Assembly: GCA_026002995.1 (NCBI GenBank)
Contig: BPGK01000001.1
Span: forward strand, 2,357,988-2,421,987
Direction of reading: 5' to 3'
Source: Gaiellaceae bacterium
GTDB taxonomy: Bacteria; Actinomycetota; Thermoleophilia; Gaiellales; Gaiellaceae
DNA: 64,000 bases
Shown here: positions 6,599-25,631 of the stretch, in pieces
How the letters are laid out: each line of letters begins with the position of its first letter
Position numbering within the stretch: the first letter of the stretch is position 1
The notes under the pieces: generated by a model
What the model was told of the DNA's origin: nothing
The model's input: only the letters and a program-made list of their open reading frames with translations
Databases searched by the model: none
Program-made: the position numbers and the translations under genes

Positions 6599-6976
6599 TC
6601 AGAGGGAATCGAGGAGCGCGACGTCCCGCGCGTAGCTGAGGAGCGAACGCGCCTCGGAGAGAGAGACCCACCGCGCGTCGTCGACCTCGCGCACCAGCTC
6701 GATCCGATCCTGGAGCGGTCGCATCCGCCAGTACCGCACGCGCTTCGGCCGCCCCTGCGCGTCCACGTACTCCACCGACGGGAGCTCGCGCTCGAGCTCG
6801 CAACGCAGCCCGGTCTCTTCCTCCACCTCGCGGAGCGCGCACGCCTCGTCGGCCTCCCCGGGCTTGGCCTTGCCCTTGGGAAACGTCCAGTCTCCGTGCG
6901 CCGATCGATGCACGACGAGCACCTCCACGCGTCCGCCTCGCTCACGAACGACGAGCCCGCCCGCGGCGCGGATCAC
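6599..6976 (-). CDS. Nudix hydrolase (MutT1-like N-terminal domain)
   Basis: The 125-residue protein carries a Nudix box, GKAKPGEADEACALREVEEETG, with the REVEEETG core binding the catalytic metals. It begins VIRAAGGLVVRERGG, as in MutT1/diadenosine-polyphosphate hydrolases, and WTFPKGKAKPGE is typical of that group. GTG 6976 overlaps the stop of the CYTH-CHAD gene by four bases (GTGA), which fixes the start. In Mycobacterium the MutT1 gene also sits beside ppk1, so the neighbourhood is conserved while the two domains are separate genes here. Likely substrates are oxidised nucleotides or dinucleoside polyphosphates. Confidence 0.88.
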   Translation of the reverse strand: MIRAAGGLVVRERGGRVEVLVVHRSAHGDWTFPKGKAKPGEADEACALREVEEETGLRCELERELPSVEYVDAQGRPKRVRYWRMRPLQDRIELVREVDDARWVSLSEARSLLSYARDVALLDSL

Positions 6977-8380
6977 CTGCTTGCCCTCCGACCGCGCCGC
7001 TCGAGCTCGGCCCAGGCAGCAGGCCACGCCGCGCGAGCCTCGCGACGCCGCGCGCGCTGGCGCTCGACGAGCCGCTCGGCCAGCGCCTCGGCGCCAGGCT
7101 CCCGGGTCGCCCAGGCACGGACTCGTTCCTCCGCCACGCAAGCGTCCTGGTGCTCGCCGAGAACGTCCTGGAGCCGCTTTGCAGCCGCGACGAACCGTCG
7201 GCCCCGCTTACCGAGCTCCGGCTCGGCGAGCTCTGCGGCGTAGCGCGCCCGCTTCACCTGGATGCGAGCTGCGTGGAGCTCGTCGTCCGACGACCTCGGG
7301 CCGAGCGTCCGAAATCTCCGCCGCGTCCGCTCGAACTCCTCTCGCCAGAGGTCGGAGAGCGTCAACTCGACTCCGGAGACAGCCGCGGGCTGCGTGGACT
7401 CGAGGCGATAGAGGAGTGCGAAGTAGCGCGGGTGGGAGAGGGCGCTGACCGCTGCCGCTCGGGCAGCGGCGTGCTCCTCCTCGAGCGCGTTCAGCAGCGA
7501 TCGGGCCACACGCTCCCCGAGCCCGACCTCTGTCAGGTCGGCGCGAGACGTGCGCGAGGAGCACGTCGAGGTCGCGCGCCGGCCCGAGCGCCGACCCGAG
7601 CCAGCCGAGCTCCTCGCGGAGCGACCTTGCCCACTCGCGCTCAAGGAGCGGCCGCGCGGCCCGCAGAAAAGCGCGGGCACGCCGCGTGGCGACACGCATC
7701 TGGTGGAGATCCTCGGGATCGCTGCCGAGCCTCGTGCCCGGGTCGTGGACGAGCAGCCGCTCGGCCTGCTCGACGAGCGCGACGCGCAGAACCTCGAGCG
7801 GGGGTGCGTGGACCGCCATCGAGACGCGCGGCCGCGCGGGCTCGATGCCGAGCGCGCGGTACAGCTTCGGTACGAGTGGCGCCTGCTCGGCGCCGGCTCG
7901 CACGAGCTGCACGACGAGCCGCTCCAGCACGGCATTGTCGTCGGCGGTGAGCTCCACCTCGAGCTCCCGGAAGCGCTCGACGACGCGTGCGCCATCGAGA
8001 ACGGACACCGTGTCCTCGACGATCTCGGCGCCCTCGACCCGCACGCGCCGACGACGCGTGCGAAGGCGAGCAACCCGGACGAGCGGGGCTCCGCGGACGA
8101 TCGCCGGGAGGAGGTCGAGCATCGCCTGTGGCGGACGAGCGGGCGGGCCCGGCTCCTCGAGCTCGACGCGCGCCGTCCCCCGAGGGAGCTTCAACTGCCA
8201 CACGCCCGCCCCGGCTTCCAGCCGATGTCGGAGCGTAACCCCATGCCGCGCCAACCGCAGATCGGCGGTGTCGACGTAGGTGGAGACGAACTCGCGGGTC
8301 GGAAGCTCTGGGCCGAAGGCAGCGAGCCGGAAGCCGCCACCCGGGATGAGCTTCGCCTCGCGCTCGACGGTCGTTCGCAT
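6973..8380 (-). pseudogene. CYTH-CHAD domain protein, interrupted by a frameshift
   Basis: The N-terminal half is a CYTH (triphosphate tunnel) domain, starting MRTTVEREAKL with the ExExK motif EREAK. It continues into a CHAD domain with HQMRVATRRARAFLRA. Near 7541-7546 the reading frame shifts by one base: the upstream frame ends its CHAD-like sequence at ARDLDVLLAHVS, and the next frame resumes with ADLTEVGLGERVARSLL and finishes with the second conserved block HAARIQVKRARYAAELAE. Removing one base there gives a full-length protein of roughly 468 residues. CHAD domains bind polyphosphate, which fits the ppk1-ppx neighbourhood. Either a real pseudogene or a sequence error. Start ATG 8380 has TACCCT seven bases upstream (8393 down to 8388). 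Confidence 0.82.
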
Positions 8381-8451
8381 CCGTTGCAGGGTAGTGCCGC
8401 GCGCGCTGACTCGTCTCGGACCGGTGAACGTCCCGCCCGATCGGCGCGATG

Positions 8452-8802
8452 TCACGGGGAGGACGGCCGCACCGGCCCTGCGAGCAGGTCGCCGATCCGC
8501 TCGAGCGCCCCCGGCGCGAGCGAGTAGTACGCGAAGGTCCCTCGCTTCTCGCGCTCGAGGAGCCCCGCCTCGACCAACTGCTTGAGGTGGTGGCTGACGG
8601 TGGGCTGCGAGATGCCGAGCAGCGGCTGGAACTCGCAGACGCAGACCGCCTCTCCCTCCGCCGCGAGCAGGATGTTGAGAATGCGGATGCGGTGCCGGTC
8701 GGCGAGCGCCTTGAACAGGCGCTCCAGCTCGGCAGCCTCGTCCTCGGTCAGCGTCGAGCCGGCGAGCGGAGTACAGCAGTGGACGAGGGGTAGCGCGGTC
8801 AC
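8452..8802 (-). CDS. arsR: ArsR/SmtB-family metalloregulator
   Basis: This 116-residue winged-helix repressor has the ArsR recognition helix GISQPTVSHHLKQLVEAGLLE and the wing KRGTFAYYSL. A CVCEF motif at about residue 54 matches the arsenic-binding CxC of classical ArsR, and extra Cys residues sit near the N-terminus (HCC). It would release DNA when As(III) binds. The start is GTG 8802 with a -10-like TAGCAT (8814 down to 8809) six bases upstream, so it is probably leaderless. It is divergent from arsC and shares with it a palindromic operator. Confidence 0.92.
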   Translation of the reverse strand: MTALPLVHCCTPLAGSTLTEDEAAELERLFKALADRHRIRILNILLAAEGEAVCVCEFQPLLGISQPTVSHHLKQLVEAGLLEREKRGTFAYYSLAPGALERIGDLLAGPVRPSSP

Positions 8803-8814
8803 GCTCCCATGCTA

Positions 8815-8830
8815 ATCGACTCGCATCGAT
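8815..8830. promoter_or_regulatory. Predicted ArsR operator in the arsR-arsC promoter region
   Basis: The palindrome ATCGA-N6-TCGAT abuts the -10 of arsR (8809-8814) and lies upstream of a CATATT -10-like element (8845-8850) for arsC. An identical arrangement recurs before osmC, and a one-mismatch copy precedes acr3. A related half-site TTCGATGCATG follows at about 8858-8868. The pattern is seen directly; ArsR binding is inferred. Confidence 0.6.
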
Positions 8831-8913
8831 GTGCCCCGTTACCACATATTCACCGCATTCGATGCATGCTGGTGCGAAGATCGGTGAGAACACGACCAGG
8901 AGGCCTTGAAGCC

Positions 8914-9555
8914 GTGACCGAGATGCTCGACCCCGCCACCCGTAGCCACCTCGCGAAAGCGGCCGAGGCGCTCCACGACGAGTTCGCGGAGATCTTCTCG
9001 AAGCAGACGATCGAGCGCTACCTCAAGGAGTCCATCGACCTCCTCGGAGAGTCGAAGATCTCCACCTACGTGCCCGTGCTCGCGCATCGGTTCGCGCGCG
9101 AGCGTTTGCGAGCGCTCGCCCAGACGGAAGGTGCGATCCCCAAGACGCAGCCGGAGATCCTGTTCGTCTGCGTCCAGAACGCCGGACGCAGCCAGATGGC
9201 GGCCGGGCTCGTCACGCTCCGCTCACGTGGCACGGTGCGCGTCCGCTCGGCCGGCTCCGTTCCCGCCGAGGCCGTGAACCCTCGGGTCGCCGAGGTGATG
9301 GCGGAGCTCGGAGTCGATCTGGCGGAGGCCTTCCCCAAGCCTCTCACCGACGAGGTCGTGCGCGCCGCCGACGTGGTGATCACGATGGGCTGTGGCGACG
9401 CCTGCCCGATCTACCCCGGGAAGCGCTACGAGGACTGGGTCGTCGCCGATCCGGCGGAGGCACAGTCGCTCGAAGAGGTGCGCGCAATCCGCGACGACAT
9501 CGACAGGCGAGTTCGAGTGCTCTTGGGCGAGCTCGGCGTCGAGACCGACGGCTGA
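8914..9555 (+). CDS. arsC: Arsenate reductase, low-molecular-weight phosphatase type, with N-terminal helical domain
   Basis: The C-terminal domain (from about residue 80) is an LMW-phosphatase fold ArsC. The P-loop is FVCVQNAGRSQM (CX5R), and the general acid Asp lies in DWVVADPAE. TMGCGDACP supplies the resolving Cys residues used in thioredoxin-type arsenate reductases. The first 75 residues form a helical domain (LAKAAEALHDEF...YVPVLAHRFARERL) like the three-helix-bundle dimerisation domain of some actinobacterial ArsC proteins. It converts As(V) to As(III) for export. AGGAGG at 8898-8903 lies ten bases before GTG 8914 and decides that start. Convergent with the TauE gene. Confidence 0.93.
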   Translation: MTEMLDPATRSHLAKAAEALHDEFAEIFSKQTIERYLKESIDLLGESKISTYVPVLAHRFARERLRALAQTEGAIPKTQPEILFVCVQNAGRSQMAAGLVTLRSRGTVRVRSAGSVPAEAVNPRVAEVMAELGVDLAEAFPKPLTDEVVRAADVVITMGCGDACPIYPGKRYEDWVVADPAEAQSLEEVRAIRDDIDRRVRVLLGELGVETDG

Positions 9556-11233: not shown

Positions 11234-12502
11234 ATGGCACGCGTCCTCTCCATCTCGACCGAGACAAGCCTCGCTGCGCGCTGGCCGTGTGCCTTCGCCG
11301 GACCGTGTGCACCGCATCGTGTCCTCGCCGAGACCTCGGATCTCGGCGAGGCCTTGCGCCTGCGCGACGAGCTCCGGCCCGACGTCGTCGTGCTCGAGCT
11401 CGGGCCGGGTCGCGAGGAGGCAGTCGCAGCCTGCGAGCAGCTCGCAGACGGCGCGCCCCCGGTGGTAGCGCTTGCACCGCGCCTCGACGACGAGGAGCGG
11501 GCCGACCTGCTCGCGGCAGGCGCAACCGGATACGTCCTCACCACGATCGAAGACGGCGGCTTCGCGATCGCGCTCCAGGCTGTCGCCGAGGTCGCTGGGC
11601 CGACTCCGGCTCCAGCGAGCTCGACGACCGACCGGACGCGCGGCACCACCTCGAGGGCGGACTTCCTCCGCATGACCGGTCTCGCCGCCGCGGTTGCGAC
11701 CGTCATCCCGACGGCGAGCCGAGCGCAGACGACGACGCTCGAGACGAACCCCTCCCCATCGGCACCCGCCTCGCTCCCGACGCTGCCGGCGCCATCCGAC
11801 GGCGAGAGTGACCTGTTGCGCATGCAGCGCGAGCTCGTCGCTGCGATGCGCAAGCCGGTGGAGGAGCGCAAGTGGGTGATGGTCATCGACCTGCGCAAGT
11901 GCTCCGGCTGCGACGCGTGCACCATCGCCTGCAAGGCCGAGAACCAGTTGCCGCCCGGGGTCGTCTACCGACCGGTCGTCCAAGAGGAGGTCGGCACGTA
12001 CCCGAACGTCCGCCGCCGCTTCCTGCCCCGGCCCTGCATGCAGTGCGAGAAGCCGCCGTGCACGCCGGTGTGCCCGGTCGGCGCCACCTGGCGTCGACGA
12101 GACGGCGTGATCGCGATCGACTACGAGAAGTGCATCGGCTGCCGCTACTGCCTCACCGCGTGCCCGTACTCGGCCCGCACGACCGACAAGGGCGAGTTCT
12201 ACACCGACACCACCCCCGCGAGACAGCCCTACGAGGAGCAGGTCTCCCCGGAGTACAACGCGGGCTTCCGGCGCGCGGACGGCGGCTCGCCGATCGGCAA
12301 CGCTCGCAAGTGCCACTTCTGCCTGCACCGGCTCGAGGCGGGTCAGCTCCCCGCGTGCGTGACGAGCTGCATCGGGCACGCCACGTTCTTCGGCGACGCG
12401 AACGACCCGACGAGCCTCATCGCAGAGCTCATCGGGCGTCCCGAAGCCCGGCGCCTGAAGGAAGAGCTCGGAACCCAGCCCCGCGTCTACTACCTCACCT
12501 GA
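11234..12502 (+). CDS. Molybdoenzyme iron-sulfur subunit with N-terminal receiver-like domain
   Basis: The C-terminal two-thirds is an electron-transfer subunit like PsrB/TtrB/ArrB, with four cysteine clusters: [11 protein letters not shown] from residue 223, [26 protein letters not shown] and CHFC...CVTSC. These bind four [4Fe-4S] clusters. The first hundred residues look like a response-regulator receiver fold ([12 protein letters not shown], then PPVVALAP, then [13 protein letters not shown]), but Glu replaces the phospho-acceptor Asp. Between the two lies [19 protein letters not shown] (140-158), which resembles a Tat signal with only one Arg. ATG 11234 has GGGAGGTGG upstream. It is 12 bases before the catalytic fusion gene. 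The internal signal raises the question of maturation and location. Confidence 0.87.
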
Positions 12503-12514: not shown

Positions 12515-15500
12515 ATGAACCGCACCCACGTCGAGCGCGCACTGATCGCGACCTGGGCCGTGGCGTTTCTGCTCGGCGGGCTCGGCGTCCTCTGGCGCCT
12601 GTATTCCGAGCACGCAGACTTCGGCAGCTACATCCCGTGGGGGCTCTGGGTCGCGCTCTACGCATGGTTCGTCGGCCTCTCGGCCGGCGCATACATGCTC
12701 TTCGCCGCGGGCGAGGTGTTCCGGATCGACCGGCTGCGCCGCATCAGCCGACCCGCGCTCGTGATCTCGGTCGCATCGCTCGTCTCCGGCCTCCTCGTCG
12801 TGGGGCTCGACCTCGGCCACCTGGAGCGCTTCTGGAAGGTCTACGTGTACGGAAACCCGACCTCGCTGATGGCCTGGGAGATCTCGTTCTACACCGCGTT
12901 CGGGCTGCTCGCTCCCGTCACGCTCGTGCTCGCCTTCCGCAACGAGCTCTCGCGCTTCGGGCCGTTCAAGCCTCTCGCCGGTTCTGCCGGCGTCGACTCG
13001 CCGTGGATCCGGCCCCTCGCCCTCGTCGGCGGCATCCTCGCGATCGCGGTCTCGGGAGCGACGGGCGCGCTCTTCGGCGTCGTCGCCTCGAGACCGTACT
13101 GGCACACGGGGCTCCTCCCGCTGCTCTTTATCGCAGCCGCGCTCCTGTCGGCCGCCGCGGTGCTCACGGTCATCGTCGCGCTCACCTCCGGCGAGCGCGA
13201 CGGTGAGGACGGGGAGGTCGCCTTCCTCGGCCGGCTCACGCTCGCCTTCCTCGGGATCGCCGTGCTCGTCGAGTGGGCGGACGTCTCGATCGCCTGGGCG
13301 CAGCACTCGCAGACGGCCGCCGGCTGGGCCGCGTGGGACCTCGTCTTGACGGGGCCACGGTGGTGGGTCTTCTGGCTCGTGCACGTCGCCGCAGGCGTCC
13401 TCGTGCCGGCCGTCCTCTTGTTCAGCTGGCCGCGCAGGATCGCGGCAGTCGGGATCGCGGCCGGGCTGATCGCGGTGACGCTCGTCTCGGTCCGGCTGAA
13501 CATCGTCATCCCGGGCCTCGCGGTGCCCCAGCTCGAGGGGCTCGACGAGGCCTACACCGGCCCCGGGCTCACATTCGACTACAACCCGACGCTCCAGGAG
13601 TGGCTCGTCTCGATCTTCGCCGGCGCGCTCTTCGTCGGTCTCGTGGGCGGTTGGTACCGGCTCGTCGCCGAGCCGAGGCTCGGAGTAGCCATGCAGCCCG
13701 ACGCGTTGCCGGCCGAGAGCGAGGAGGCCGAGACGCGAGGCGAGTTCCTGAGCAAGGTCGGGCTCGCCAGCGGGGCGCTCCTCGCGACGCAACTCCCGCT
13801 CGCGATCCACGCGCTCGGCGAGCCGGGCTCAGGGCCAACGAGCCCGCTCGGTGAGGCGCCGTATGAGCTCGCGAAGCCCGAGAACATCGTCTTCTCCGTC
13901 TGCCAGCAGTGCAACACGCAGTGCGGGATCAAGGCCAAGCTCGTGGACGGCGTGCTCGTGAAGATCGACGGGAACCCGTACTCGCCGTGGACGATGAAGC
14001 CTCCGCTCCCGTACGAGACCCCGCTCGTGCAAGCCGCCGCCGTCGACGGCTGGATCTGCCCCAAGGGCCAGGCGGGGATCCAAGCCGCGTACGACCCCTA
14101 CCGCATCCGCAAGGTGCTGAAGCGCGACGGGCCGCGCGGCTCGGGACGCTGGAGGTCGATCGACTTCGACCAAGCGATCACCGAGATCGTGGAAGGTGGC
14201 GACCACTTCGGCGAGGGGCACGTCCCCGGGCTGGCCGAGCTTTGGGCGCTCCGCGACCCCGACCTCGCGAAGGAGATGAGCGCAGGCGTCAAGGCGATCT
14301 GGGACGGCGAGCTCACCGTCGAGGAGTTCAAGGCGAAGCATCGCGAACACCTCAACGTCCTCATCGACCCAGACCACCCCGACCTGGGCCCGAAGAACAA
14401 CCAGGTCGTCTTCGCCTGGGGCCGCCTCAAGTCGGGGCGCGGCGAACTGCTCCGCCGCTTCATCCAGGAGAGCTACGGCTCCGTGAACGCGCACGGGCAC
14501 ACCACGGTCTGTCAAGGGTCTCTCTACTTCGCCGGCAAGGCAATGAGCGAGCAGTGGATTGACGGCCGCTGGCAGAAAGGCGTCAAGGCGTACTGGCAAG
14601 CGGACGTCGGCGCCTCCGAGTTCGTGATCTTCGTCGGAGCGTCGCCCTTCGAGGCCAACTACGGCCCGCCCTACCGCACGAGCCAGATCACCGACGGCCT
14701 TGCGAGCGGTCGCCTGAAGATCGCGGTCGTCGACCCGCGGCTCTCGAAGACGGCGGCCAAGGCCTGGCGCTGGGTGCCCGCCAAGCCGGGGTCGGAAGGA
14801 GCGCTCGCCCTGGCGCTCATCCGCTGGATCATCGACAACCGCCGCTACGACGAGGCGTTCCTCCGCAACGCGAACAAGGCAGCTGCGGAGGCGGCAGGCG
14901 AGAAGACGTGGACGAACGCAACGTGGCTCGTGTACGCAGCCGGCGAGAACGAGGGCAAGCTCGTCCGCGCGTCGGAGATCGGCCTGGGCGAGGTGGAGGA
15001 GCGGCTCGACGCGAAGGGCAACCCGTACGAGTACGACCGTTTCGTCGTGCTCGTGAACGGGCGCCCCGTGGCCGTCGACCCTGCCGACGAGGCGAACCCG
15101 GTCGTCGGGGACCTGCTCGTGAACGGCACCGTGCGCGGAGTTCGCGTCAAGAGCGGGTTCCGGCTGCTGGCGGAGTCGGCGCGCTCGAGGACGATCCGGC
15201 AGTGGGCCGAGATCGTGGGCGTCGATCCGACGCTCATCGTCGAGCTCGCCCGCGAGTTCGTGAGCCACGGGAAGAAGGCAGCTGCGGACGTGCACCGCGG
15301 CGTCTCGCAGCACACGAACGGGTACTCCAACGTCGTCGCCTGGAACAGCCTCAACGCCCTGATCGGAAACTACGACTGGGCCGGTGGCTCGTCGAAGGCG
15401 ACGACCTACAGCGTGACCGCAGACCGAGATGGCGAGCCGATCGAGGGCATGCCGTTCCACATCCCGAGCCTGCACCCGGCGAAGCTGACGCCGTTCGGGA

Positions 15501-16927
15501 TCTCGAGCATCCGGCACGACGTCCCGTACGAGAAGTCGACCATCTTCGACGGCTACCCCGCCAAGCGGCCCTGGTACCCGCTCTCGAGCGACGTCTACCA
15601 GGAGATCGTCCCCTCGATCGGCGACGCCTACCCGTACCCGGTCAAGGCGCTCTTCCTGTACATGGGCTCCCCCGTGTACGCGCTTCCCGGCGGCCACACG
15701 AACATCGAGGTGCTGTCCGACCCGACGAAGCTCCCGCTCTTCGTCGCGAGCGACATCGTCGTCGGCGAGACCTCGATGTACGCGGACTACATCTTCCCCG
15801 ACCTCTCCTACCTCGAGCGTTGGGAGTTCGCCGGCTCGCACCCCGGCGTCGTGGAGAAGGTGCAGCCGATTCGCCAGCCGGTGATCGCGCCGCTCACCGA
15901 GAGCGTGACCGTGTACGGGGAGGAGCAACCGCTCTCCTTCGAGGCGATGCTCTTCGGGCTGGCCGAGAAGCTGGGGCTGCCCGGCTTCGGCCCGAACGGC
16001 CTGGGCGACGGGCGACCGCTCGCCCGGCCCGAGGACTACTACCTCCTCATGGTCGCCAACGTCGCGGCAGGCGACAAGCAGAACCCGGTGGATCCGGCAT
16101 CCGACGACGAGATCGCGCTCCTCACCGAGTCGCGGCGGCACCTCCCGGCAACCGTCTTCGACGCAGACCGCTTCCGGGCGATCGTCGGCGACGAGTGGTG
16201 GCCGCGCGTCGCCACGGTCCTCCTGCGCGGCGGTCGCTTCGACCGCGAGGGTCGGGACGGCGAGATGCTCGCCAACGCGTACGGCAAGCAGCTCAACCTG
16301 TACCAGGAGAAGACGGCGAAGGCGATCAACGCCATGACCGGCGAGCACTACCCGGGAGTGGCCGTCTACGTCCCCGCGCCGCGGGCGTCCACCGGCGAGG
16401 ACATCGAGGACGACGGCTTCCCGCTCCGACTCATCACCTTCCGCGAGATCATGCACACGAAGTCGCGGACCGGCGGGAACTACTGGCTGCTCGACCTCCT
16501 CCCGGAGAACCACCTGCTGATCAGCCCGACCGACGCCCGCGAGCTCGGATACCGCGACGGCGCCTGGGTGCGCCTCGTGTCGGCCACGAACCCCGAGGGC
16601 GAGTGGGCGCTCGGCAACAACCAGACAGTGCCCATGGTCGGGAAGCTGAAAGTGGTCGAGGGTATCCGGCCCGGCGTCGTCGCCTTCTCCCTCGGGCACG
16701 GGCACTGGGCGTACGGCGCCCACGACATCCTCGTCAACGGGGAGCGGATACGGGGCGACCATCGCCGCGTGCACGGCTTCCACGGCAACGCCGCGATGCG
16801 TGTCGACCCGCACCTGAAGAACACCTGCCTCGCCGACCTCACGGGCGGAAGCGCGGTCTTCTACGACACGTCGGTCAGACTCGAGCCGGCGTCGGAGTCC
16901 GACGCTGCGCCGGCCATGGCCATCTGA
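12515..16927 (+). CDS. NrfD/PsrC membrane anchor fused to molybdopterin catalytic subunit (PsrA/TtrA/ArrA-like)
   Basis: Residues 1-390 form an NrfD/PsrC-type quinone-interacting membrane domain with about nine helices. Residues 393-1470 form a DMSO-reductase-superfamily catalytic subunit. A [4Fe-4S] site is C463-x2-C466-x3-C470 with C515 (WICPKG). Cys666 in HTTVCQGS is the likely Mo ligand, which places it with the polysulfide/tetrathionate/arsenate group. The linker holds TRGEFLSKVG, a Tat-like sequence with one Arg. There is no stop between the parts; Met393 (ATG 13691, preceded by GGAG) could be an internal start. With the upstream Fe-S protein it forms a complete quinone-coupled complex. 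Substrate is unproven: sulfur oxyanions or arsenic are the leading options, the latter suggested by flanking ars genes. Confidence 0.88.
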   Translation: MNRTHVERALIATWAVAFLLGGLGVLWRLYSEHADFGSYIPWGLWVALYAWFVGLSAGAYMLFAAGEVFRIDRLRRISRPALVISVASLVSGLLVVGLDLGHLERFWKVYVYGNPTSLMAWEISFYTAFGLLAPVTLVLAFRNELSRFGPFKPLAGSAGVDSPWIRPLALVGGILAIAVSGATGALFGVVASRPYWHTGLLPLLFIAAALLSAAAVLTVIVALTSGERDGEDGEVAFLGRLTLAFLGIAVLVEWADVSIAWAQHSQTAAGWAAWDLVLTGPRWWVFWLVHVAAGVLVPAVLLFSWPRRIAAVGIAAGLIAVTLVSVRLNIVIPGLAVPQLEGLDEAYTGPGLTFDYNPTLQEWLVSIFAGALFVGLVGGWYRLVAEPRLGVAMQPDALPAESEEAETRGEFLSKVGLASGALLATQLPLAIHALGEPGSGPTSPLGEAPYELAKPENIVFSVCQQCNTQCGIKAKLVDGVLVKIDGNPYSPWTMKPPLPYETPLVQAAAVDGWICPKGQAGIQAAYDPYRIRKVLKRDGPRGSGRWRSIDFDQAITEIVEGGDHFGEGHVPGLAELWALRDPDLAKEMSAGVKAIWDGELTVEEFKAKHREHLNVLIDPDHPDLGPKNNQVVFAWGRLKSGRGELLRRFIQESYGSVNAHGHTTVCQGSLYFAGKAMSEQWIDGRWQKGVKAYWQADVGASEFVIFVGASPFEANYGPPYRTSQITDGLASGRLKIAVVDPRLSKTAAKAWRWVPAKPGSEGALALALIRWIIDNRRYDEAFLRNANKAAAEAAGEKTWTNATWLVYAAGENEGKLVRASEIGLGEVEERLDAKGNPYEYDRFVVLVNGRPVAVDPADEANPVVGDLLVNGTVRGVRVKSGFRLLAESARSRTIRQWAEIVGVDPTLIVELAREFVSHGKKAAADVHRGVSQHTNGYSNVVAWNSLNALIGNYDWAGGSSKATTYSVTADRDGEPIEGMPFHIPSLHPAKLTPFGISSIRHDVPYEKSTIFDGYPAKRPWYPLSSDVYQEIVPSIGDAYPYPVKALFLYMGSPVYALPGGHTNIEVLSDPTKLPLFVASDIVVGETSMYADYIFPDLSYLERWEFAGSHPGVVEKVQPIRQPVIAPLTESVTVYGEEQPLSFEAMLFGLAEKLGLPGFGPNGLGDGRPLARPEDYYLLMVANVAAGDKQNPVDPASDDEIALLTESRRHLPATVFDADRFRAIVGDEWWPRVATVLLRGGRFDREGRDGEMLANAYGKQLNLYQEKTAKAINAMTGEHYPGVAVYVPAPRASTGEDIEDDGFPLRLITFREIMHTKSRTGGNYWLLDLLPENHLLISPTDARELGYRDGAWVRLVSATNPEGEWALGNNQTVPMVGKLKVVEGIRPGVVAFSLGHGHWAYGAHDILVNGERIRGDHRRVHGFHGNAAMRVDPHLKNTCLADLTGGSAVFYDTSVRLEPASESDAAPAMAI

Positions 16928-16948: not shown

Positions 16949-16977
16949 GCCGGAGGCGGCCGACAACCGCCTCCGGC
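16949..16977 (+). terminator. Hairpin after the molybdoenzyme gene
   Basis: A perfect 11-bp stem (GCCGGAGGCGG and its complement) with a seven-base loop begins 21 bases past the stop codon. No T-run follows. It would separate the molybdoenzyme transcript from acr3. Confidence 0.55.
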
Positions 16978-17064: not shown

Positions 17065-17091
17065 GTGGGCGATTCGAAGCAGGTCGCGTGA
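17065..17091 (+). CDS. Possible eight-residue leader peptide coupled to acr3
   Basis: A GTG seven bases after the -10 TAGTCT opens the frame VGDSKQVA, which stops at TGA 17089-17091. That stop overlaps the GTG start of acr3 (GTGA), so ribosomes entering the leaderless frame would finish exactly at the pump start. acr3 itself has only a weak ribosome site. This is a reading of the layout; no expression evidence exists here. Confidence 0.35.
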   Translation: MGDSKQVA

Positions 17092-18254
17092 GGAGCCGAG
17101 CCGCCGACGAGCAACTCGTCCTCTCGCGGCTCTCGCGGCTCGACCGTCTCCTCCCGCTCTGGATCGGGCTCGCGATGGCCGGCGGCCTTCTGCTCGGAAC
17201 GCTCGTGCCGAGCCTGAACGACGGCCTCGAGAGGCTTCAGATCGGGACCGTCTCGCTGCCGATCGCGATCGGCCTGCTGGCGATGATGTACCCGGTCCTC
17301 GCGAAGGTGCGCTACGAGGATCTCGGGCGCATGAGCGACGACGGCGTCGGCAACTGGCGCTTCTTCGGCACCTCGCTCTTCCTCTCGTGGATCGTCGGGC
17401 CCGCGCTCATGTTCGCGCTCGCGTGGATCTTCCTCGCCGACCAGCCGGAGTATCGGACGGGCGTCATCGTCGTCGGGCTCGCGCGTTGCATCGCGATGGT
17501 GCTCGTCTGGAACGACATCGCGCTCGGCGATCGCGAGCGGGCGGCGATCCTCGTCGTCTTCAACGCGCTCTTCCAGGTCGCCGCCTACGCGCTCCTCGGC
17601 TACTTCTATCTGACCCTCCTGCCCGGCTGGCTCGGCTTCGACACGCAGGGTTTCGACGTCGGGATCTGGGAGATCGCGCGCACGGTGCTCGTCTTCCTCG
17701 GCATCCCCTTGCTCGCCGGCTACCTGACGCGCGTGATCGGCATCCGCCGGCGCGGCCGCGACTGGTACGAGACGAGCCTCATCCCGCGCATCGCGCCGAT
17801 CACCCTCTACGCGCTGCTCTTCACCATCGTCGTCCTGTTCGCGATTCAGGGAGAGGAGATCACCTCGCAGCCGCTCGATGTCGCGCGCATCGCGCTGCCG
17901 CTCTTCGCGTACTTCGCCCTCATGTGGCTCCTCGGCTTCGGCGCCGGGCGGCTCCTGGGGTTCCCGTACCCCCAGACGGCCGCGCTCTCCTTCACGGTCG
18001 CCTCGAACGACTTCGAGCTCGCGATCGCGGTCGCCGTCGGCGTCTTCGGCGCCGCGTCGGGGCAGGCTCTTGCCGGCGTCGTCGGCCCACTGATCGAGGT
18101 TCCCGTCCTCGTCGCGCTCGTCTACGTCGCGCTCTGGCTCAGGCGTCGCTTGGCCTGGCCACCGTACCCCCTCGCCCCCCGCCGCGCGCACGCGCATGCA
18201 GTCGCTCCTCCAGCCCGAGAGGCCGCCGAACAGGGAACGCCTGCTGCTCCCTGA
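17088..18254 (+). CDS. acr3: ACR3-family arsenite efflux transporter
   Basis: The 388-residue membrane protein has ten predicted helices and the ACR3 signatures: ARCIAMVLVWN with the essential Cys, and ALSFTVASNDFELAIAVAVGVFG near residue 310. It exports As(III) using the proton gradient and completes the arsR-arsC detoxification set 8 kb away. The C-terminus has an Ala/Pro/His-rich tail. GTG 17088 is the only reasonable start because the frame upstream is closed. An ArsR-type operator lies in its promoter. Confidence 0.95.
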   Translation: MRSRAADEQLVLSRLSRLDRLLPLWIGLAMAGGLLLGTLVPSLNDGLERLQIGTVSLPIAIGLLAMMYPVLAKVRYEDLGRMSDDGVGNWRFFGTSLFLSWIVGPALMFALAWIFLADQPEYRTGVIVVGLARCIAMVLVWNDIALGDRERAAILVVFNALFQVAAYALLGYFYLTLLPGWLGFDTQGFDVGIWEIARTVLVFLGIPLLAGYLTRVIGIRRRGRDWYETSLIPRIAPITLYALLFTIVVLFAIQGEEITSQPLDVARIALPLFAYFALMWLLGFGAGRLLGFPYPQTAALSFTVASNDFELAIAVAVGVFGAASGQALAGVVGPLIEVPVLVALVYVALWLRRRLAWPPYPLAPRRAHAHAVAPPAREAAEQGTPAAP

Positions 18255-18314: not shown

Positions 18315-19304
18315 CTAGCTCTTCCGCGCCTGCCGCACGGACAGCAGGAAGTACCTCTTCGCCCGCTTGAGCTGCGCCTTGGTCAGCGGGACGAAGTCCG
18401 CGCGCCGAGCGATGGCCGCCTCGTTGTCGAAGATGAAGCGCAGGAACGCCTGCACCTCGGGTCGCTTGAAGGAGACGCCCTTCGCGTAGATGAAGAGGGG
18501 TCGGGCAAGCGGCTTGTACGACCCGTCCTGCGCGCTCTTGACGCTCGGGGCGACGCACTGGCCGGTCTTCGGGTTCCTGATCTCGAGCGCCTTGAGCCGG
18601 CTCTTGTTCTCCTCGTAGTACGAGTACCCGAAGTAGCCCATCGCGCCTCGGTCACCCGCGACACCCTGAACCGTGACGTTGTCGTCCTCGGTGCCGAGGT
18701 AGTCCGACCGGCTCGCCTTCGCCTTGCCCACGATCGCCTCGGTGAAGTAGTCGAAGGTGCCCGAATCGGTGCCGGCGCCGTAGAGCCTCAGTGGGACATC
18801 TGGGAAGCCCGGCCGGATCTCCTTCCAGTTCGAGATCTTCGATCCCGGCTCCCAGATCCTCTTGAGCTCCTCGACGGAGAGGCACGTCGCCCACGTGTTC
18901 TGTGGGTTGACGACGACCGTCAGCGCGTCGTTCGCGACCGTGAAGGCGCGCCACGGAACGACACCGTTCTTCTTGCACTCGGCCGCCTCGGCCAGCTTCA
19001 TCGGCCGCGAGGCGTTCTGGAGGTCGGTCTCCCCCTTGCAGAAGCGCTGGAACCCGCCTCCGGTGCCGGAGATCCCCACCGTGATGCGCACGTTCTTCGC
19101 GCCGGCTCGGTTGAAGAGCTCGGCTGCCGCCGTCGTGTACGGGCCGACCGTCGACGAGCCGTCGGCGACGATGGTCCCCCGCAGCTTCGAGTAGTCCGGC
19201 TTCTTCGCTTGCGACGTCGCGCCCGTAGCGACGGACGCAACGACGAGACATGCGATCGCGCCCGCGGCGACAGCCCCCGGACGCCACCCTGAGATGCGCT
19301 TCAT
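18315..19304 (-). CDS. pstS: Phosphate ABC transporter substrate-binding protein (first copy)
   Basis: PstS binds phosphate outside the membrane and delivers it to PstCA. The 329-residue protein starts with a Sec-type signal (MKRISGWRP..., hydrophobic core to about residue 28, likely cut after TSQA). The binding motifs are DGSSTVGPYT, GISGTGGGFQRFC, NASRP, GAGTDSGTFDYF and GAMGYFGYSYY. It has no clear lipobox, unlike the second PstS. A good ribosome site (AGGAGG) precedes ATG 19304. It is downstream of phoU but has its own PHO-box-like repeats in the 180-base gap. Confidence 0.95.
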   Translation of the reverse strand: MKRISGWRPGAVAAGAIACLVVASVATGATSQAKKPDYSKLRGTIVADGSSTVGPYTTAAAELFNRAGAKNVRITVGISGTGGGFQRFCKGETDLQNASRPMKLAEAAECKKNGVVPWRAFTVANDALTVVVNPQNTWATCLSVEELKRIWEPGSKISNWKEIRPGFPDVPLRLYGAGTDSGTFDYFTEAIVGKAKASRSDYLGTEDDNVTVQGVAGDRGAMGYFGYSYYEENKSRLKALEIRNPKTGQCVAPSVKSAQDGSYKPLARPLFIYAKGVSFKRPEVQAFLRFIFDNEAAIARRADFVPLTKAQLKRAKRYFLLSVRQARKS

Positions 19305-19383
19305 CTCTTTCTGCTCCTCCTGTCGAGTAGGTGGTGCCTGCCGCTTGCGATGGTGGCGACCCTCGACCGGGAGGTGGGCTCAC

Positions 19384-19416
19384 AGGGCGTGAACACGTCG
19401 TCACAGGGTGGTAAAT
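19384..19416 (-). promoter_or_regulatory. PHO-box-like repeats upstream of pstS
   Basis: Read on the minus strand, three 11-base units lie end to end: ATTTACCACCC (19416-19406), a weak TGTGACGACGT (19405-19395) and GTTCACGCCCT (19394-19384). The outer units match the PHO core spaced by exactly two repeats. They lie about 80-110 bases before the pstS start. Confidence 0.5.
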
Positions 19417-19484
19417 GCCACCGTGCGCGGAGGTCAGGAGCGCGCACCGCGCGTGCCGGCGCAGTGACCGACGTTAGGAGGACA

Positions 19485-20147
19485 TCAGCGCGAGGCGTCG
19501 GTGAACTCGGTCAGCTCGCCGGTGACGAGGAACGCCGTCTGCTCGCCGATGTCCACCGCGTTGTCGCCGATCCGCTCGAAGCAGCGTGCGACGGTGACCT
19601 GGCGCATCCCCCACTCGAGCGCCTGCGCATCGTGAACGTGCTCCAAGACGTCCTGGAACACCTGCCGATTCGCGCGGTCGACGAGCTCGTCGAGCTGGTG
19701 GAGCTCCCGCGCCTTCTCGACGTCGCGCTCGGCGAACGCGGTGAGCGCGAGCTTGACCATCTCGGCGCAGCGCTCGCCCATGTCGACGAGGCTCTCGAGG
19801 ATTCCGCGCTGCGCTCCGAGGTGGGCGGAGAGCTTCGTGAGCTTCGCGATCGTCACGCACTGGTCGCCCATCCGCTCGAGGTGGAGACCACCGTGGAGGA
19901 GCGCGAGAACGAGGCGCAGATCCGAGGCGACCGGAGTCTGGCGCGCGAGCACGAGCTCGACCCCCCGCTCGATGGCGACGTAGCGCTCGTCGATCTCGTC
20001 GTCGAAGGCGATGACCTCGTCGCACAGCTCGACGTCCTGCGTGCGCAGCGCGTCGTTGACACCTCGCACCGCGCGGAGGACGACCTCGCCGGCCTCCTGG
20101 AACCCGGCCTCGAGCGCATCGAGCTCAGCCTGGAGCTCGATCCTCAT
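19485..20147 (-). CDS. phoU: Phosphate transport regulator PhoU
   Basis: PhoU links the Pst transporter to the Pho sensor kinase and dampens signalling when phosphate is plentiful. The 220-residue helical protein has two PhoU repeats; acidic metal-binding motifs appear as [10 protein letters not shown] with [13 protein letters not shown] in the first repeat and [11 protein letters not shown] with [13 protein letters not shown] in the second. ATG 20147 overlaps the pstB stop by four bases (ATGA), fixing the start and showing coupling. Confidence 0.95.
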
Positions 20148-21007
20148 CCGAACCTCCCCGTCACGTAGTCCTCCGTGCGCTTGTCGGACGGCATCGTGAA
20201 GATCTTCGTCGTCGTGTCGTACTCGACGAGGACGCCTCGACGAGCGCTGCCGTCCTCGTTCACGACGACACTGAAGAAGGCCGTCATGTCGGCGACGCGC
20301 GCCGCTTGCTGCATGTTGTGCGTGACGATGACGATCGTGTACTCGCGCTTGAGGTCGTGCATGAGGTCTTCGATGCGCGTGGTCGAGATCGGGTCGAGCG
20401 CGGAGGCGGGCTCGTCCATGAGGATCACGTCGGGCTCGACCGCGAGCGCCCGGGCGATGCAGAGGCGCTGCTGCTGGCCGCCGGAGAGGCCGAGCGCGTT
20501 GTCCTTGAGCCGGTCCTTCACCTCGTCCCAGAGCGCCGCTTGCCGGAGCGCGCCCTCGACGCGGTCGTCCAGGTCGCCCTTCATTCCGAGCACGCGCGGC
20601 CCGAAGGCGACGTTGTCGTAGATCGACTTCGGGAAGGGGTTCGGCTTCTGGAACACCATCCCGATGCGCCGTCGGATCTCGACCGGGTCGATGTCCTTCG
20701 CGTACAGGTCTTGGCCGTGGTAGAGCACCGAGCCGACCACCTTCGCGCCGGGGATCAAGTCGTTCATCCGGTTGAAGCACCGGATGAACGTGCTCTTCCC
20801 GCACCCCGACGGCCCGATGAAGGCCGTGACCGTGTTCTTGTAGACGTCGAGCGCGACCTCTTCGATCGCCGGCGTCCCCGAGTAGTAGACCCCGAGATCG
20901 CGCACGGAGAAGACCTTCTCCCGACGCTCGATCTCCGCCCGCTCGAGGGCGGTGGAGGTCTGAGCGATGCGCGTGCTGTCGATCTGCGGAGCTTCCATCT
21001 GCGTCAT
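20144..21007 (-). CDS. pstB: Phosphate ABC transporter ATPase
   Basis: PstB powers phosphate uptake. The 287-residue protein has Walker [10 protein letters not shown], signature LSGGQQQR, Walker [14 protein letters not shown] and switch His in [21 protein letters not shown] after Walker A is specific to PstB. It starts at ATG 21007, four bases after the pstA stop. The first 35 residues are an extension before the ABC domain proper. Confidence 0.97.
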
Positions 21008-21011
21008 GGCC

Positions 21012-21890
21012 TCACCATTGCTTGCGGTAGCGGTTCCGGAGGACGATTGCCAGGGCGTTCATGCTCAGGACGATGACGAGCAGGACGATCGCCCCGGCGG
21101 CGGCGAGTGTCTGGAACGTCGGGTCCGGCTGCTTCGTCCAGTTGTAGATCTGGACGGGGAGCGCCGTGTAGGCGCCGAGGAGCGTCGGATCGAAGGCGAC
21201 GTAGACGACGGCGCCGACCATGATCAGCGGCGCCGTCTCGCCGACCGCGCGCGAGAGCGCGAGGATCGACCCGGTCGCCATGCCCGGGATCGCCGCAGGA
21301 AGCACCTGGCGCCAGATGACCTGCCACTTCGTCGCCCCGAGCGCGAACGCGCCCTGCCGGATCGAGTCGGGCACCGACCGGATCGCCTCGCGCGAGGCGA
21401 CGACGACGGTCGGGAGGACGACGAGCGTGAGGATCAGCGCGCCCGCGAGCACGACGCGACCGAGCCCGATCCCGCGCACGATGAACGCGAGCCCGAGGAT
21501 CCCGTACACGATCGATGGAACCGCCGCGAGGTTCTGGATGTTCACCTCGATCAGGCGGTTGTACCAGCGCTCGCGGTTCGCGTACTCCTCGAGGTAGATG
21601 GCGGTGAAGATGCCGATCGGGACCGACATCAGCAGAACGAGAGCCCCGAGGTAGAGGGTGGCGAGGATGGCCGGCCGCGCGCCCGCCTCGTCTGCGATCG
21701 TCGACGGCGGCTCGGTGAGGAGCTGACGGTCGAGCTCCGGCCAGCCGGTGACGGCGGTGTCGACGAGGAGGATCGTGAGCGTCCCGAACGCGACGAGCAT
21801 CGCGAAGAGCATCGCGGCCTGGAAGACGCGGTTGCGCCACACCCGGCGCTGGCGGCCGGTTGGGAGCGACGACTCGAGCGTCGTCATCAC
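21012..21890 (-). CDS. pstA: Phosphate ABC transporter permease PstA
   Basis: This 292-residue inner-membrane permease has six helices and the PstA coupling-loop region [62 protein letters not shown] is typical of PstA. Starts GTG 21890 and ATG 21887 are adjacent and overlap the pstC stop; either fits. Confidence 0.95.
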
Positions 21891-22822
21891 TCGTAGACCT
21901 CCCGGAACTTCCGGACGAGCCGGATCGAGATGAGGTTCATGATCAGCGTCATGACGAAGAGAGTCAGGCCCACGGCGAAGATCGTCTTGTACTCGATCGA
22001 GCCCGTCGGGACGTCGCCATTGCCGGTCGCGCCGATGAACGCCGTCATGGTCGAGATCGTTTCCCGAGGATCGAACGTGATCTGCGGGAGCTGACCGGCC
22101 GCGATCAGCACGATCATCGTCTCGCCTACGGCGCGCGAGAACGCGAGCACGAAGGCGGCGATGATGCCCGAGATCGCAGCCGGGACGACGACGCGGGTCG
22201 ATACCTGGAGCTTGTCGGCGCCGAGGGCGTACCCCCCGTCGCGCAGGTCACGAGGCACGGCCGCCATCGCGTCCTCCGAGAGCGAGGCCACGGTCGGGAT
22301 GAGCATGATCCCGAGGACGATGCTCGCGGAGAGCGCGTTGAAGATCTCGACCTCGATCCCGATGTCGCGAATGAACGGCGTCACGAAGGTGAGCGCGAAG
22401 TACCCGAGGACGACGGTCGGAATCGCAGCGAGGATCTCCAGGATCGGCTTGAGGAAGCGGGTGACGCTCTCGCGAGCGTACTCGCTGAGGTAGATCGCGA
22501 CGCCGAGTCCGAGCGGGAACGCGATGAGCGAGGACCAGAAGGAGATCACGAGCGTCCCGACGACGAGCGGGACGACGCCGAACTCCGGCTCGAGGAAGAG
22601 CGGCGCCCAGGTCGTGCCGGTGAGGAACTCCCACGGCGAGACGATCCGGAAGAAGTCGATGGCCGGCAGCACGAGCGAGAGGACGATGCCGACCGTCGTC
22701 AGCACCGAGATCGTCGCCGCGACGAAGAGGACAACCTGGACGACAACCTCGCCGAGGCGGATCCGCTTCTTCGGCAGGGCGACGCTCGACGCGGCGTCGT
22801 AGGGTAGGTCGAGCGACGCCAT
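21887..22822 (-). CDS. pstC: Phosphate ABC transporter permease PstC
   Basis: This is the partner permease of PstA. The 311-residue protein has a leading helix (VVVQVVLFVAATISVLTTVGIV), the periplasmic loop WEFLTGTTWAPLF, and the coupling region LRDGGYALGADKLQVSTRVVVPAAISGI. The PstC motif FLKPILEILAAIPTVVLGYFAL is present. ATG 22822 shares its first base with the pstS2 stop (TGATG), so translation is coupled. Confidence 0.95.
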   Translation of the reverse strand: MASLDLPYDAASSVALPKKRIRLGEVVVQVVLFVAATISVLTTVGIVLSLVLPAIDFFRIVSPWEFLTGTTWAPLFLEPEFGVVPLVVGTLVISFWSSLIAFPLGLGVAIYLSEYARESVTRFLKPILEILAAIPTVVLGYFALTFVTPFIRDIGIEVEIFNALSASIVLGIMLIPTVASLSEDAMAAVPRDLRDGGYALGADKLQVSTRVVVPAAISGIIAAFVLAFSRAVGETMIVLIAAGQLPQITFDPRETISTMTAFIGATGNGDVPTGSIEYKTIFAVGLTLFVMTLIMNLISIRLVRKFREVYE

Positions 22823-23742
22823 CAGCTGGTCGCGGACACCGCCGCGTCGAGCTTCGCGAGCTGCTCGTCGATCTGCGCCTGCGACATGGGAACGAAGAGC
22901 GCCTCCTGCGCCACGGTGCGGGCGTTCTCGAGCGCGTAGCGGACGAACGCCTCCACGTTTTCGTTCCCGCGGAGTGAGGCCAGACTGACGTAGATGAAGA
23001 GCGGTCGCGAGAGCGGCGTGTACGTGCCGTTCTGCGCGGACTCGATGCTCGGAGCGACACACCCGTTCCCACCGTCGACCTCGAGCGCCTTCAGCTTGTC
23101 CTGGTTCTGCTCGAAGTACGAGAACCCGAAGTAGCCGAGCCCGCCGCGGTTGCCCGCGACCCCCTGCACCGTCACGTTGTCGTCCTCGGTGGCCGAGTAG
23201 TCCGTCCTGCTCGCTCCAGCCTCGCCGTTGATCGCCTCGGTGAAGTAGTCGAAGGTCCCCGAGTCGGTGCCGGCGCCGAAGAGCTGGAGGGGAACGTCGG
23301 GGAACGAGGGATCGACCTGCTTCCAGTTCGTCACCGTCGAGCCCGGCCTCCAGATGGCGTGGAGCTGCTCGACCGTGAGGCAGTCGGCCCAGTCGTTCTG
23401 CGGGTTGACGACGTTCGTCAGCGCGTCGATCGCGACCTGGAGCTCGACGTACTCGACGCCGTTTTCCTCGCAGAGCTCGACCTCCTCGGCGCGGATCGGC
23501 CGAGACGCGTTCGAGATGTCGGTCTCGCCGGCACAGAAGCGCTCGAACCCACCCCCGGTACCGGAGATACCGACGCTGACGTCGGCTCCACCGTCGCGCT
23601 TCCAGTCCTCGGCCGCCTTCGTCGTGAAGGGCCCGACGGTGCTCGAGCCGTCGGCCGTGACGCTCGCGCCACCGCCCCCGCCGCAACCGGAGACGAAGAA
23701 GACGAGCATGACGACGGCGACAGCGGGAAGGCGTCCGACCAC
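22822..23742 (-). CDS. pstS: Phosphate ABC transporter substrate-binding lipoprotein (second copy)
   Basis: The 306-residue protein is a lipoprotein form of PstS: the signal ends in a lipobox FFVSGCG, followed by a glycine run. Binding motifs are DGSSTVGPFT, GISGTGGGFERFC, NASRP, GAGTDSGTFDYF and GGLGYFGFSYF. It shares long stretches with the first PstS, so the two are paralogues. GTG 23742 was chosen because it gives a proper signal peptide and has a -10-like GACACT (23754-23749) six bases upstream. It heads the pstSCAB-phoU operon. Confidence 0.94.
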   Translation of the reverse strand: MVGRLPAVAVVMLVFFVSGCGGGGGASVTADGSSTVGPFTTKAAEDWKRDGGADVSVGISGTGGGFERFCAGETDISNASRPIRAEEVELCEENGVEYVELQVAIDALTNVVNPQNDWADCLTVEQLHAIWRPGSTVTNWKQVDPSFPDVPLQLFGAGTDSGTFDYFTEAINGEAGASRTDYSATEDDNVTVQGVAGNRGGLGYFGFSYFEQNQDKLKALEVDGGNGCVAPSIESAQNGTYTPLSRPLFIYVSLASLRGNENVEAFVRYALENARTVAQEALFVPMSQAQIDEQLAKLDAAVSATS

Positions 23743-23782
23743 GACAGCAGTGTCGCGGTCGCGGGCCGTGCGGCGGGGCGCC

Positions 23783-23815
23783 GGCTGGTGAAGATGTCGT
23801 GAAAGTCTGGTGAAG
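23783..23815 (-). promoter_or_regulatory. Triple PHO-box-like direct repeat upstream of pstS2
   Basis: Three contiguous 11-base units are read on the minus strand: CTTCACCAGAC (23815-23805), TTTCACGACAT (23804-23794) and CTTCACCAGCC (23793-23783). Each holds TTCAC[C/G] in the same phase. They fill the gap between the sensor kinase and the pst operon. Confidence 0.65.
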
Positions 23816-23819
23816 TCGG

Positions 23820-24743
23820 TCAGCCGGGAAAGGCGCAGCGAATCTCGAGCCCCTCTCCCCGACCCCCGCGCGCTTCGACGTGCCCGCCCGCCTGGGTGAC
23901 CACGTGCTTCACGATCGCGAGGCCGAGCCCGGTTCCGCGCGAGGCGCGCGCGCGATCCGAGCGGTAGAAGCGCTCGAAGAGCCGTGGGAGCTCGGCCTCC
24001 TCGACCCCGATCCCGTTGTCGCGGCCCGAGAGGACGATGCTGCCGTCGGGCGCCCGGGTCACCGAGAGCGTGAAAGCGGCGCCCGACCCGGCGTAGCGGA
24101 TCGCGTTCTCGGCGAGGTTGAGCGCGATCACGCGCAGCATGCGCGGCCGCACCCTCACGGTCAGGTCCGGCTCGCACTCGAGCCGGAGCTCGACCCCCGC
24201 GCGCTCCGCCCGCTCGCGGAGCTCCGCCAGTGCCTCCTCGAGGACCGGACGCACTGCGGTCGGGCCGAGGGCGACGACCCGCGCGCCGGACTCGAGCTCG
24301 GAGAGGAAGAGGATCTCGTCGATCAGCTCGGTGATCTGCTCGACCTCGCGCTGCGCCTGCTCAACGAGCCCGAGAACGTCCTCGCCGGGCAGCGCCGCGG
24401 TCTCGAGGAGAGTGAGGAGGCGCGCGAGCGGCGTTCGGAGCTCGTGCGAGACGGCGGCCGTGAACCCCGCGCGCAGCTCCTCATAGGCGGCGAGGTCGCC
24501 CTCGCGCGAGAGGTAGACGAGCCGCTCGGTGCGGCCGTCGACCTCGTAGGGAACGACGAGTGGGACGACGCCGAGGCCGCCGGTGAGAAGCGCCGCGGGC
24601 GCACGCGCCCCCTCGCGGATGCCCTCGACCGTCTGCCGCGCGCGTCGGCTCGCGAGGACGACCCGGTCTTGGTCGTCGAGGACGACGACCGCCTCCCGGC
24701 TCTCCTCGACGAGCGCCCGGGCACGCATCGCGTCCACGTCCAC
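23820..24743 (-). CDS. Sensor histidine kinase, PhoR/SenX3-like
   Basis: The kinase (about 307 residues) has a short N-terminal PAS-like region (EESREAVVVLDDQDRVVLAS), a dimerisation domain with phospho-acceptor His in AVSHELRTPLARLLTLLE, and the ATPase motifs LNLAENAIRY (N box), GRDNGIGV (G1) and GTGLGLAIVKHV (G2). No transmembrane helix is evident, so sensing is probably through PhoU/Pst, as in SenX3-like systems, or cytosolic. GTG 24743 fits a -10-like TAGAAC (24756-24751) seven bases upstream; GTG 24791 or ATG 24728 are alternatives. Its response regulator is probably the OmpR-type gene at 25632. Confidence 0.9.
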   Translation of the reverse strand: MDVDAMRARALVEESREAVVVLDDQDRVVLASRRARQTVEGIREGARAPAALLTGGLGVVPLVVPYEVDGRTERLVYLSREGDLAAYEELRAGFTAAVSHELRTPLARLLTLLETAALPGEDVLGLVEQAQREVEQITELIDEILFLSELESGARVVALGPTAVRPVLEEALAELRERAERAGVELRLECEPDLTVRVRPRMLRVIALNLAENAIRYAGSGAAFTLSVTRAPDGSIVLSGRDNGIGVEEAELPRLFERFYRSDRARASRGTGLGLAIVKHVVTQAGGHVEARGGRGEGLEIRCAFPG

Positions 24744-24750
24744 GCATCGG

Positions 24751-24763
24751 GTTCTAACAGAAC
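24751..24763. promoter_or_regulatory. Perfect inverted repeat over the kinase promoter
   Basis: GTTCT-AAC-AGAAC is a 13-base palindrome. It overlaps the proposed -10 of the sensor kinase and lies upstream of the RTX-protein gene on the other strand. It may be an operator; no known binding site is recognised. Confidence 0.3.
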
Positions 24764-24778
24764 GCTTGCGGAATCCTG

Positions 24779-24799
24779 AGGGCTCCGACACGGAGCCCT
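24779..24799. terminator. Small hairpin between the kinase and RTX genes
   Basis: An 8-bp stem AGGGCTCC/GGAGCCCT with a five-base loop lies in the divergent intergenic region. Because both neighbours start away from it, a terminator is unlikely; it may be a regulatory structure. Confidence 0.2.
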
Positions 24800-24849
24800 A
24801 ACGCGCGTGCCCGTCAATCTGCTCGGCCCCGAACGAAGGGAGGATGGAG

Positions 24850-25509
24850 ATGACGGGGAAGACAGGGGGAGCGGCAGCCGCGGGCCTCGCGACCGCAGCC
24901 GCGCTCGTCCTCGCCGCGGCCGCATGGGCTGCGGTGATCACCGGCACGCCCGGTGACGAGGTGCTCCGCGGCACCGACCAGGCCGACGAGATCCGCGCGC
25001 TCGCGGGAAACGACCTCGTCTACGCGCGAGCCGGCAACGACCTCGTCCGCGCGGGCGCGGGCGACGACGGCGTTCGCGCGCTGGACGGAAACGACACCGT
25101 GTACCTCGGACTCGGCGACGACCGAGCCGGTGGAGGCGCCGGGAACGACCGGATCGCCGGAGGCTCGGGCTCCGATCACGTCGCCGGTGGTGCCGGGAAC
25201 GACCGCGTCTCCGGAAACCGGGACGACGACGTCGTGCACGGCCACGAGGGGAATGACGACCTCTTCGGCGGCTGGGGCGCCGACCGCGTCTTCGGCGGCG
25301 AGGGCAACGACGCGCTCCACGCGCTGGCGCCGGACGGGGAGCGCGACCTGCTCGCCTGCGGTGGCGGCCAGGACAAGGCGTTCCTCCTCCGCAGCGAGCG
25401 GCGCCTGACCCGTCTTGTCGGGTGCGAGCAGGTCGTCCTCGTGGAGGTGCTGACGGCAGATCAGCAGGAGGGCGAGCTCGCAGACGCCGACGCCGAAGCG
25501 GACGGGTAG
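24850..25509 (+). CDS. Secreted RTX-type calcium-binding repeat protein
   Basis: The 219-residue protein has a Sec-type signal (GGAAAAGLATAAALVLAAAAWAA) and then about eight nonapeptide RTX repeats, such as LAGNDLVYA, GAGDDGVRA, GAGNDRIAG and GEGNDALHA (GGxGxDxUx type), which fold as a calcium-binding beta-roll. The last 50 residues have two Cys and an acidic end. No catalytic domain is visible. GGGAGG at 24838-24843 puts the start at ATG 24850 rather than 24844. It lies between the Pho kinase and regulator genes. Function unknown; a cell-surface role is likely. Confidence 0.85.
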   Translation: MTGKTGGAAAAGLATAAALVLAAAAWAAVITGTPGDEVLRGTDQADEIRALAGNDLVYARAGNDLVRAGAGDDGVRALDGNDTVYLGLGDDRAGGGAGNDRIAGGSGSDHVAGGAGNDRVSGNRDDDVVHGHEGNDDLFGGWGADRVFGGEGNDALHALAPDGERDLLACGGGQDKAFLLRSERRLTRLVGCEQVVLVEVLTADQQEGELADADAEADG

Positions 25510-25516
25510 GACACCT

Positions 25517-25550: not shown

Positions 25551-25552
25551 CC

Positions 25553-25574: not shown

Positions 25575-25631
25575 GACAACCGCACCGCCGCCCGCGGGAT
25601 CCGCGCACCCCGGCACAATCGTGTTCACCGG

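Follow-up and report, generated by a model that had tools for sequence, protein, structure and literature searches.

The gene at positions 12515-16927 (+ strand) of the window, the 64,000-nucleotide stretch of DNA analysed here, most likely represents a genuine joining of two genes of a ttrBCA-type operon, C (NrfD) and A (molybdopterin), the parts of which were most likely once exported by the Tat system. The product is called CA below. The original prediction, that an NrfD membrane subunit and a molybdopterin catalytic subunit share one uninterrupted frame with these boundaries, is correct: a check of the open reading frames of the window shows a single stop-free frame of 1470 codons, with Pfam domains of both kinds. 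Its ATG is preceded by a strong Shine-Dalgarno (SD) sequence, AAGGAGG. The same gene is seen as an open frame of 1474 residues in the whole-genome search, the source of which is the same assembly.

The NrfD module (12515-13681) has ten membrane helices and is followed by a flexible linker (13682-13732), where residues 388-405 have low pLDDT values. The linker contains an internal ATG at 13691-13693 with a GGAG sequence, and an out-of-frame TAG at 13686-13688. Beyond it lie the Tat-like segment TRGEFLSKVGLASGALLATQLPLAIHALG (13733-13819), which from its sequence and hydropathy is a possible eleventh membrane helix, and the molybdopterin catalytic domain (13889-16927), recognized by profiles and by alignment of its ligands. 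The Pfam matches comprise NrfD at residues 40-337 (PF03916, 138 bits), Molybdop_Fe4S4 at 459-526, Molybdopterin at 687-1122 and Molydop_binding at 1304-1397. Cysteines 463, 466, 470 and 515 of the [4Fe-4S] site are invariant in 21 aligned sequences, as is Cys 666, the putative molybdenum ligand. CA thus has an NrfD/PsrC module and a MopB domain with an N-terminal [4Fe-4S] site and a Cys at the molybdenum, as in CISM enzymes of the NrfD type, and the adjacent gene supplies the four-cluster Fe-S subunit (TtrB, DsrO and ArrB profiles). Separate anchor and catalytic polypeptides, usual in this class though not strictly defining it, are replaced by one frame.

That the two parts are normally encoded apart, as had been proposed, is borne out by the 80 top-ranking homologous loci from GTDB genomes: both genes are visible in 52 of these, and in all 52 they are separate. 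In all, 51 loci show the gene order B-C-A, a few of these being overlapping stretches of one place. Because this order puts C beside A, the fusion joins neighbouring genes. No homologue was found in the closest genus and family members. Two candidate fusions, L054 and L074, were rejected, their long frames being spurious overlaps with the true N-terminus of the Mo subunit and its twin arginine (RR) inside.

Homologues that are always separate had been named as an outcome that would speak against the fusion. A database search for the same fusion found it at two groups of loci. L088 and L089 (genomes G554 and G466, Actinomycetota) encode full NrfD-Mo fusions of about 1500 residues, 72% identical over 1518 residues; the two genomes represent different families and both belong to one class of 27 genomes. 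Their RR motifs are intact in the fusion and in the Fe-S partner. The second, distant family consists of L105-L108 (genomes G538, G741, G556 and G537), where the Fe-S partner carries a polyferredoxin extension. Throughout the fused relatives the mid-protein Tat motif is kept in both proteins, save for one R-G. The extensions in the second family are polyferredoxin/FlpD-like and precede an internal RR (L105:8282-10453(-), L106:8834-10783(-), L107:3650-5842(+) and L108:4012-6117(+)); each of these Fe-S genes is directly upstream of the NrfD-Mo fusion, an arrangement that might provide cytoplasmic electron input.

The catalytic domain of the window groups with those of Methylomirabilota, Rokuibacteriota and Binatota (up to 67% identical), with the forks open, and L088/L089 are placed elsewhere. 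A single fusion origin for the window and L088/L089 is rejected by an AU test on the catalytic-domain tree (p = 0.002; LG+G4, 32 rows; the three-member group was chosen after the first tree had been seen), which implies that the fusion arose repeatedly. The trees of NrfD, where the window is on a long branch, and of the Fe-S subunit also do not unite these proteins; their deep support is low. In related bacteria the fusion has at least two further, separate origins. The N-terminal extension of the Fe-S subunit, too, probably arose more than once, and its occurrence together with the fusion is a correlation in few cases. A search of open-licence papers revealed no report of this NrfD-Mo fusion.

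The Fe-S partner of CA, here called B (11234-12502, + strand; 422 residues from the ATG at 11234), is TtrB/DsrO-like by profiles and is encoded upstream of CA, at a distance of about 13 nt. It consists of a receiver-like N-terminal domain (11234-11599), a degenerate Tat segment (11651-11728) and a four-cluster ferredoxin; the same order is found in L103/L104. About 140 residues precede the internal Tat-like segment, which has lost its second arginine, whereas the equivalents in L088/L089 have RR. The AlphaFold model of the N-terminal domain is of moderate confidence (pLDDT 74) and has five alternating strands and helices. Its top Foldseek matches are response-regulator receivers (E about 1e-6), and the Pfam Response_reg match to B is weak and below the cut-off (E 0.0079). 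The phosphoacceptor Asp is absent: in an alignment read by eye its place is taken by Glu in the window (VVVLELGPG) and by His in L104. The domain is described as receiver-like (a pseudo-receiver), the receiver fold being predicted from the model. In L088/L089 the Fe-S partner has an N-terminal extension that can be aligned with this domain at 24-26% identity.

The ten helices of the NrfD part are seen both in the model and by hydropathy. With the N-terminus inside, 16 Arg and Lys residues are on the inner side and 5 on the outer, so that the charges place both termini in the cytoplasm; ten helices with the same bias occur in all three close fusions. The nearest solved fold is that of ActC (E 3e-10), followed by PsrC (2.7e-4). 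The termini of ActC are on the N side of the membrane and those of PsrC on the P side (PMC8076601). An ActC-like NrfD part would have a cytoplasmic end, so that the catalytic domain has to cross by way of the Tat-like segment if it is to reach its usual side.

A Tat-like join near residue 400 had been predicted, and the segment is indeed there, but it lacks the second arginine (T407-R-G-E-F-L). The motifs are TRGEFL in CA and SRADFL in B, the arginine pair having become R-G and R-A, respectively. Among 97 Mo N-termini with a recognizable motif, 90 have RR and 4 have RK; R-G is limited to the window and G538 (L097 and L105 being the same gene). The loss of the second arginine in both signals suggests that either a tether suffices or the catalytic side is cytoplasmic. 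The segment following the motif has a hydrophobicity of 1.28-1.57 across the three close fusions, the value in the window being 1.37 as against 1.64-2.77 for its ten helices. Experiments have shown that a more hydrophobic signal can make up for the loss of RR (PMC5539426). Compensation of this kind is not supported here, the window segment scoring 1.58 in the homologue comparison, where the family mean is 1.50 (sd 0.24).

CA resembles the actinobacterial dual Sec-Tat membrane proteins (the Rieske protein QcrA, Sco3746 and a polyferredoxin; Tooke et al. 2017, PMC5449189) in having an even number of helices, a Tat-like motif, a weakly hydrophobic helix and a cofactor domain. However, those proteins have two or four helices before the motif, whereas CA has ten and has lost the twin arginine. 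RR is present in L088, L089 and three of the four members of the second family. Positive charges follow the segment in the proteins P0002 and P0005, to which all dual Sec-Tat sequence features apply; in the window none is found within about 20 residues after the segment. All of these features thus fit the window save two, RR and the closely following positive charges. A term search of the dual Sec-Tat paper (PMC5449189) did not find NrfD. The host has TatC, and another of its Mo enzymes bears a normal LSRRDLL motif. A fragment at G000:C1:88415-88585 matches only the last quarter of TatC, the full tatC being elsewhere in the genome.

The account that we consider probable as a whole is that of a real, Tat-derived fusion assembled in the following way. 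Sec would insert the ten helices of the NrfD part, leaving its two ends cytoplasmic; the catalytic part would fold together with its cofactors before leaving the cytoplasm by Tat. Residues from about 408 to 435 would remain as an eleventh helix, and anchor and enzyme would therefore stay one chain. CA would pair with B, the receiver-like domain of which would stay in the cytoplasm, and electrons would pass from quinol through the Fe-S subunit to Mo, or in reverse. The substrate would be an oxyanion, most likely arsenate or arsenite.

As to the side of the membrane, a catalytic domain that is outside, with the tether making the twin arginine dispensable, is slightly favoured. SoeABC is an NrfD-anchored Mo enzyme without export. 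A real fusion in which export was abandoned, so that the catalytic domain faces the cytoplasm together with its Fe-S partner, as in SoeABC, is the less probable but still plausible arrangement. The loss of the second arginine from both subunits, where RR or RK is retained by 94 of the 97 homologous Mo N-termini that have a recognizable motif, would be explained by it, as would the missing positive charges close to the C-terminal end of the segment; receiver-like domains are, moreover, cytoplasmic by nature, and SoeA is listed as cytoplasmic (PMC10100899). It agrees less well with the ActC-like NrfD module, whose charge bias puts both termini inside, so that the usual docking face for the Fe-S subunit would be outside. 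B also retains the shape of a signal peptide, and the Fe-S and Mo domains are close to those of relatives that have export signals (up to 73% and 67% identical, respectively).

Two further explanations concern the junction itself. If an indel had been introduced in sequencing or assembly, there would be two genes, NrfD ending at the TAG at 13686 and the Mo subunit starting at the ATG at 13691. The TAG, GGAG and ATG are arranged exactly at the junction, with the ATG at the distance from the Tat-like motif that is normal for Mo-subunit N-termini, and codon statistics identify about 8 frameshift-like places in 464 kb of the assembly (L126-L145 of G000, 400 kb, and the window), one of them in the window at 7542. 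This count bears on the trust to be placed in single-gene readings of the assembly, and at such a rate spurious fusions are not impossible genome-wide. Nevertheless, an error here is very improbable. The in-frame alignment of NrfD extends to about residue 386, which leaves about 13 nt for the indel, or a chance of about 2e-4 at that rate, and this stretch has no homopolymer. Through the junction a single frame is favoured by codon statistics, which are positive for that of CA and negative for the other two at 13620-13740. The other two loci with an Fe-S partner extended like that of the window are fused as well, and a frameshift or lost stop, of which the original prediction had warned, is unlikely since the partner is similarly extended in fused relatives. 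The gene at 6973-8445 (- strand), which by its sequence pattern putatively encodes a CYTH/CHAD-domain protein, is split near 7542, either by a sequencing error or as a young pseudogene. The other explanation, that both the full fusion and a free catalytic subunit starting at 13691 are made, is improbable, though less so than an indel. The predicted internal ATG is present, lies in the frame of CA and is preceded by GGAG at a spacing of 5 nt; what did not hold up as well is its use. SD-like matches of at least 4 nt precede 5 of the 67 internal in-frame start codons of CA (6 of 68 with the main start), so the evidence for an internal start is modest, although among the six this is the only ATG besides the main start. 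In L103, L104 and L107 the linker lacks an ATG from the last helix up to RR (GTG is present in L103 and L104), and a free product would carry the same R-G signal.

The suggestion that CA acts on arsenic oxyanions comes from its neighbours; this context, like the receiver-like domain of B, goes beyond the original prediction. The next gene downstream encodes an ACR3 arsenite efflux transporter (17088-18254, + strand; NCBIfam acr3, 414.6 bits against a cut-off of 282.8). An ArsR/SmtB-family regulator, recognized by profile matches, is at 8452-8802 (- strand), and an LMW-phosphatase/ArsC-like protein, for which the arsenate reductase models are below cut-off, is at 8809-9555 (+ strand). Just after the stop of CA the sequence can be read as a G+C-rich, terminator-like hairpin of 11 bp without a T run (16949-16977, + strand), which was missed by the terminator scan. 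It separates CA from ACR3 and so counts against the arsenic link. ACR3 is also in the flanks of L033, L052, L055, L067, L084 and L106, whereas chance would give fewer than one such locus, by an estimate that has no control and takes a genome to carry one or two ACR3 genes. The closest match to the arsenic context of the window is L033 (L033:5160-12081; Chloroflexota), where separate genes have the order B-C-A-ACR3-ArsR. The neighbours thus suggest that arsenate or arsenite is the favoured substrate. The best curated (NCBIfam) profile match of CA is TtrA, at 504.6 bits against an equivalog cut-off of 1750; the ArrA score is 106.6 bits against a cut-off of 1600. The catalytic domain and enterobacterial TtrA share about 32% identity. 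Apparent pst phosphate-uptake genes and a PhoR/PhoB-like pair, judged from translations only, are found at 18315-26330, beside the arsenic genes.

In B-C-A order, domain content and a Cys at the Mo ligand place, the operon resembles the TtrBCA tetrathionate reductase, the SrdBCA selenate reductase and the alternative (archaeal) arsenate reductase, and its best curated profile matches are TtrA and TtrB. Unlike these systems, it has C and A fused and a receiver-like domain on B. Alternative complex III shares with it the ten helices of ActC, the nearest fold of the NrfD part, but it keeps its anchor as a subunit apart, and what is fused there is the Mo-like part with the Fe-S part (ActB, PMC10100899). 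SoeABC sulfite dehydrogenase differs in its three separate genes and belongs to a different branch.

A broader reading, offered tentatively, is that Actinomycetota may repeatedly build two-chain machines from NrfD molybdoenzymes, with an anchor, Tat helix and catalytic domain in one chain, and a receiver-like or polyferredoxin domain, Tat helix and Fe-S subunit in the other; the lineage of the window may work without RR, either tethered or flipped to the cytoplasm. In the partner Fe-S subunits the internal Tat signal is preceded by a cytosolic domain, and the testable question is raised whether Tat can pass a substrate that ten helices, or a folded cytosolic domain, keep in the membrane, and whether both arginines are then still needed. 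The fusions add a candidate dual Sec-Tat family with ten helices ahead of the Tat step, and show that among quinone-linked molybdoenzymes the joining of anchor to catalytic part has happened repeatedly.
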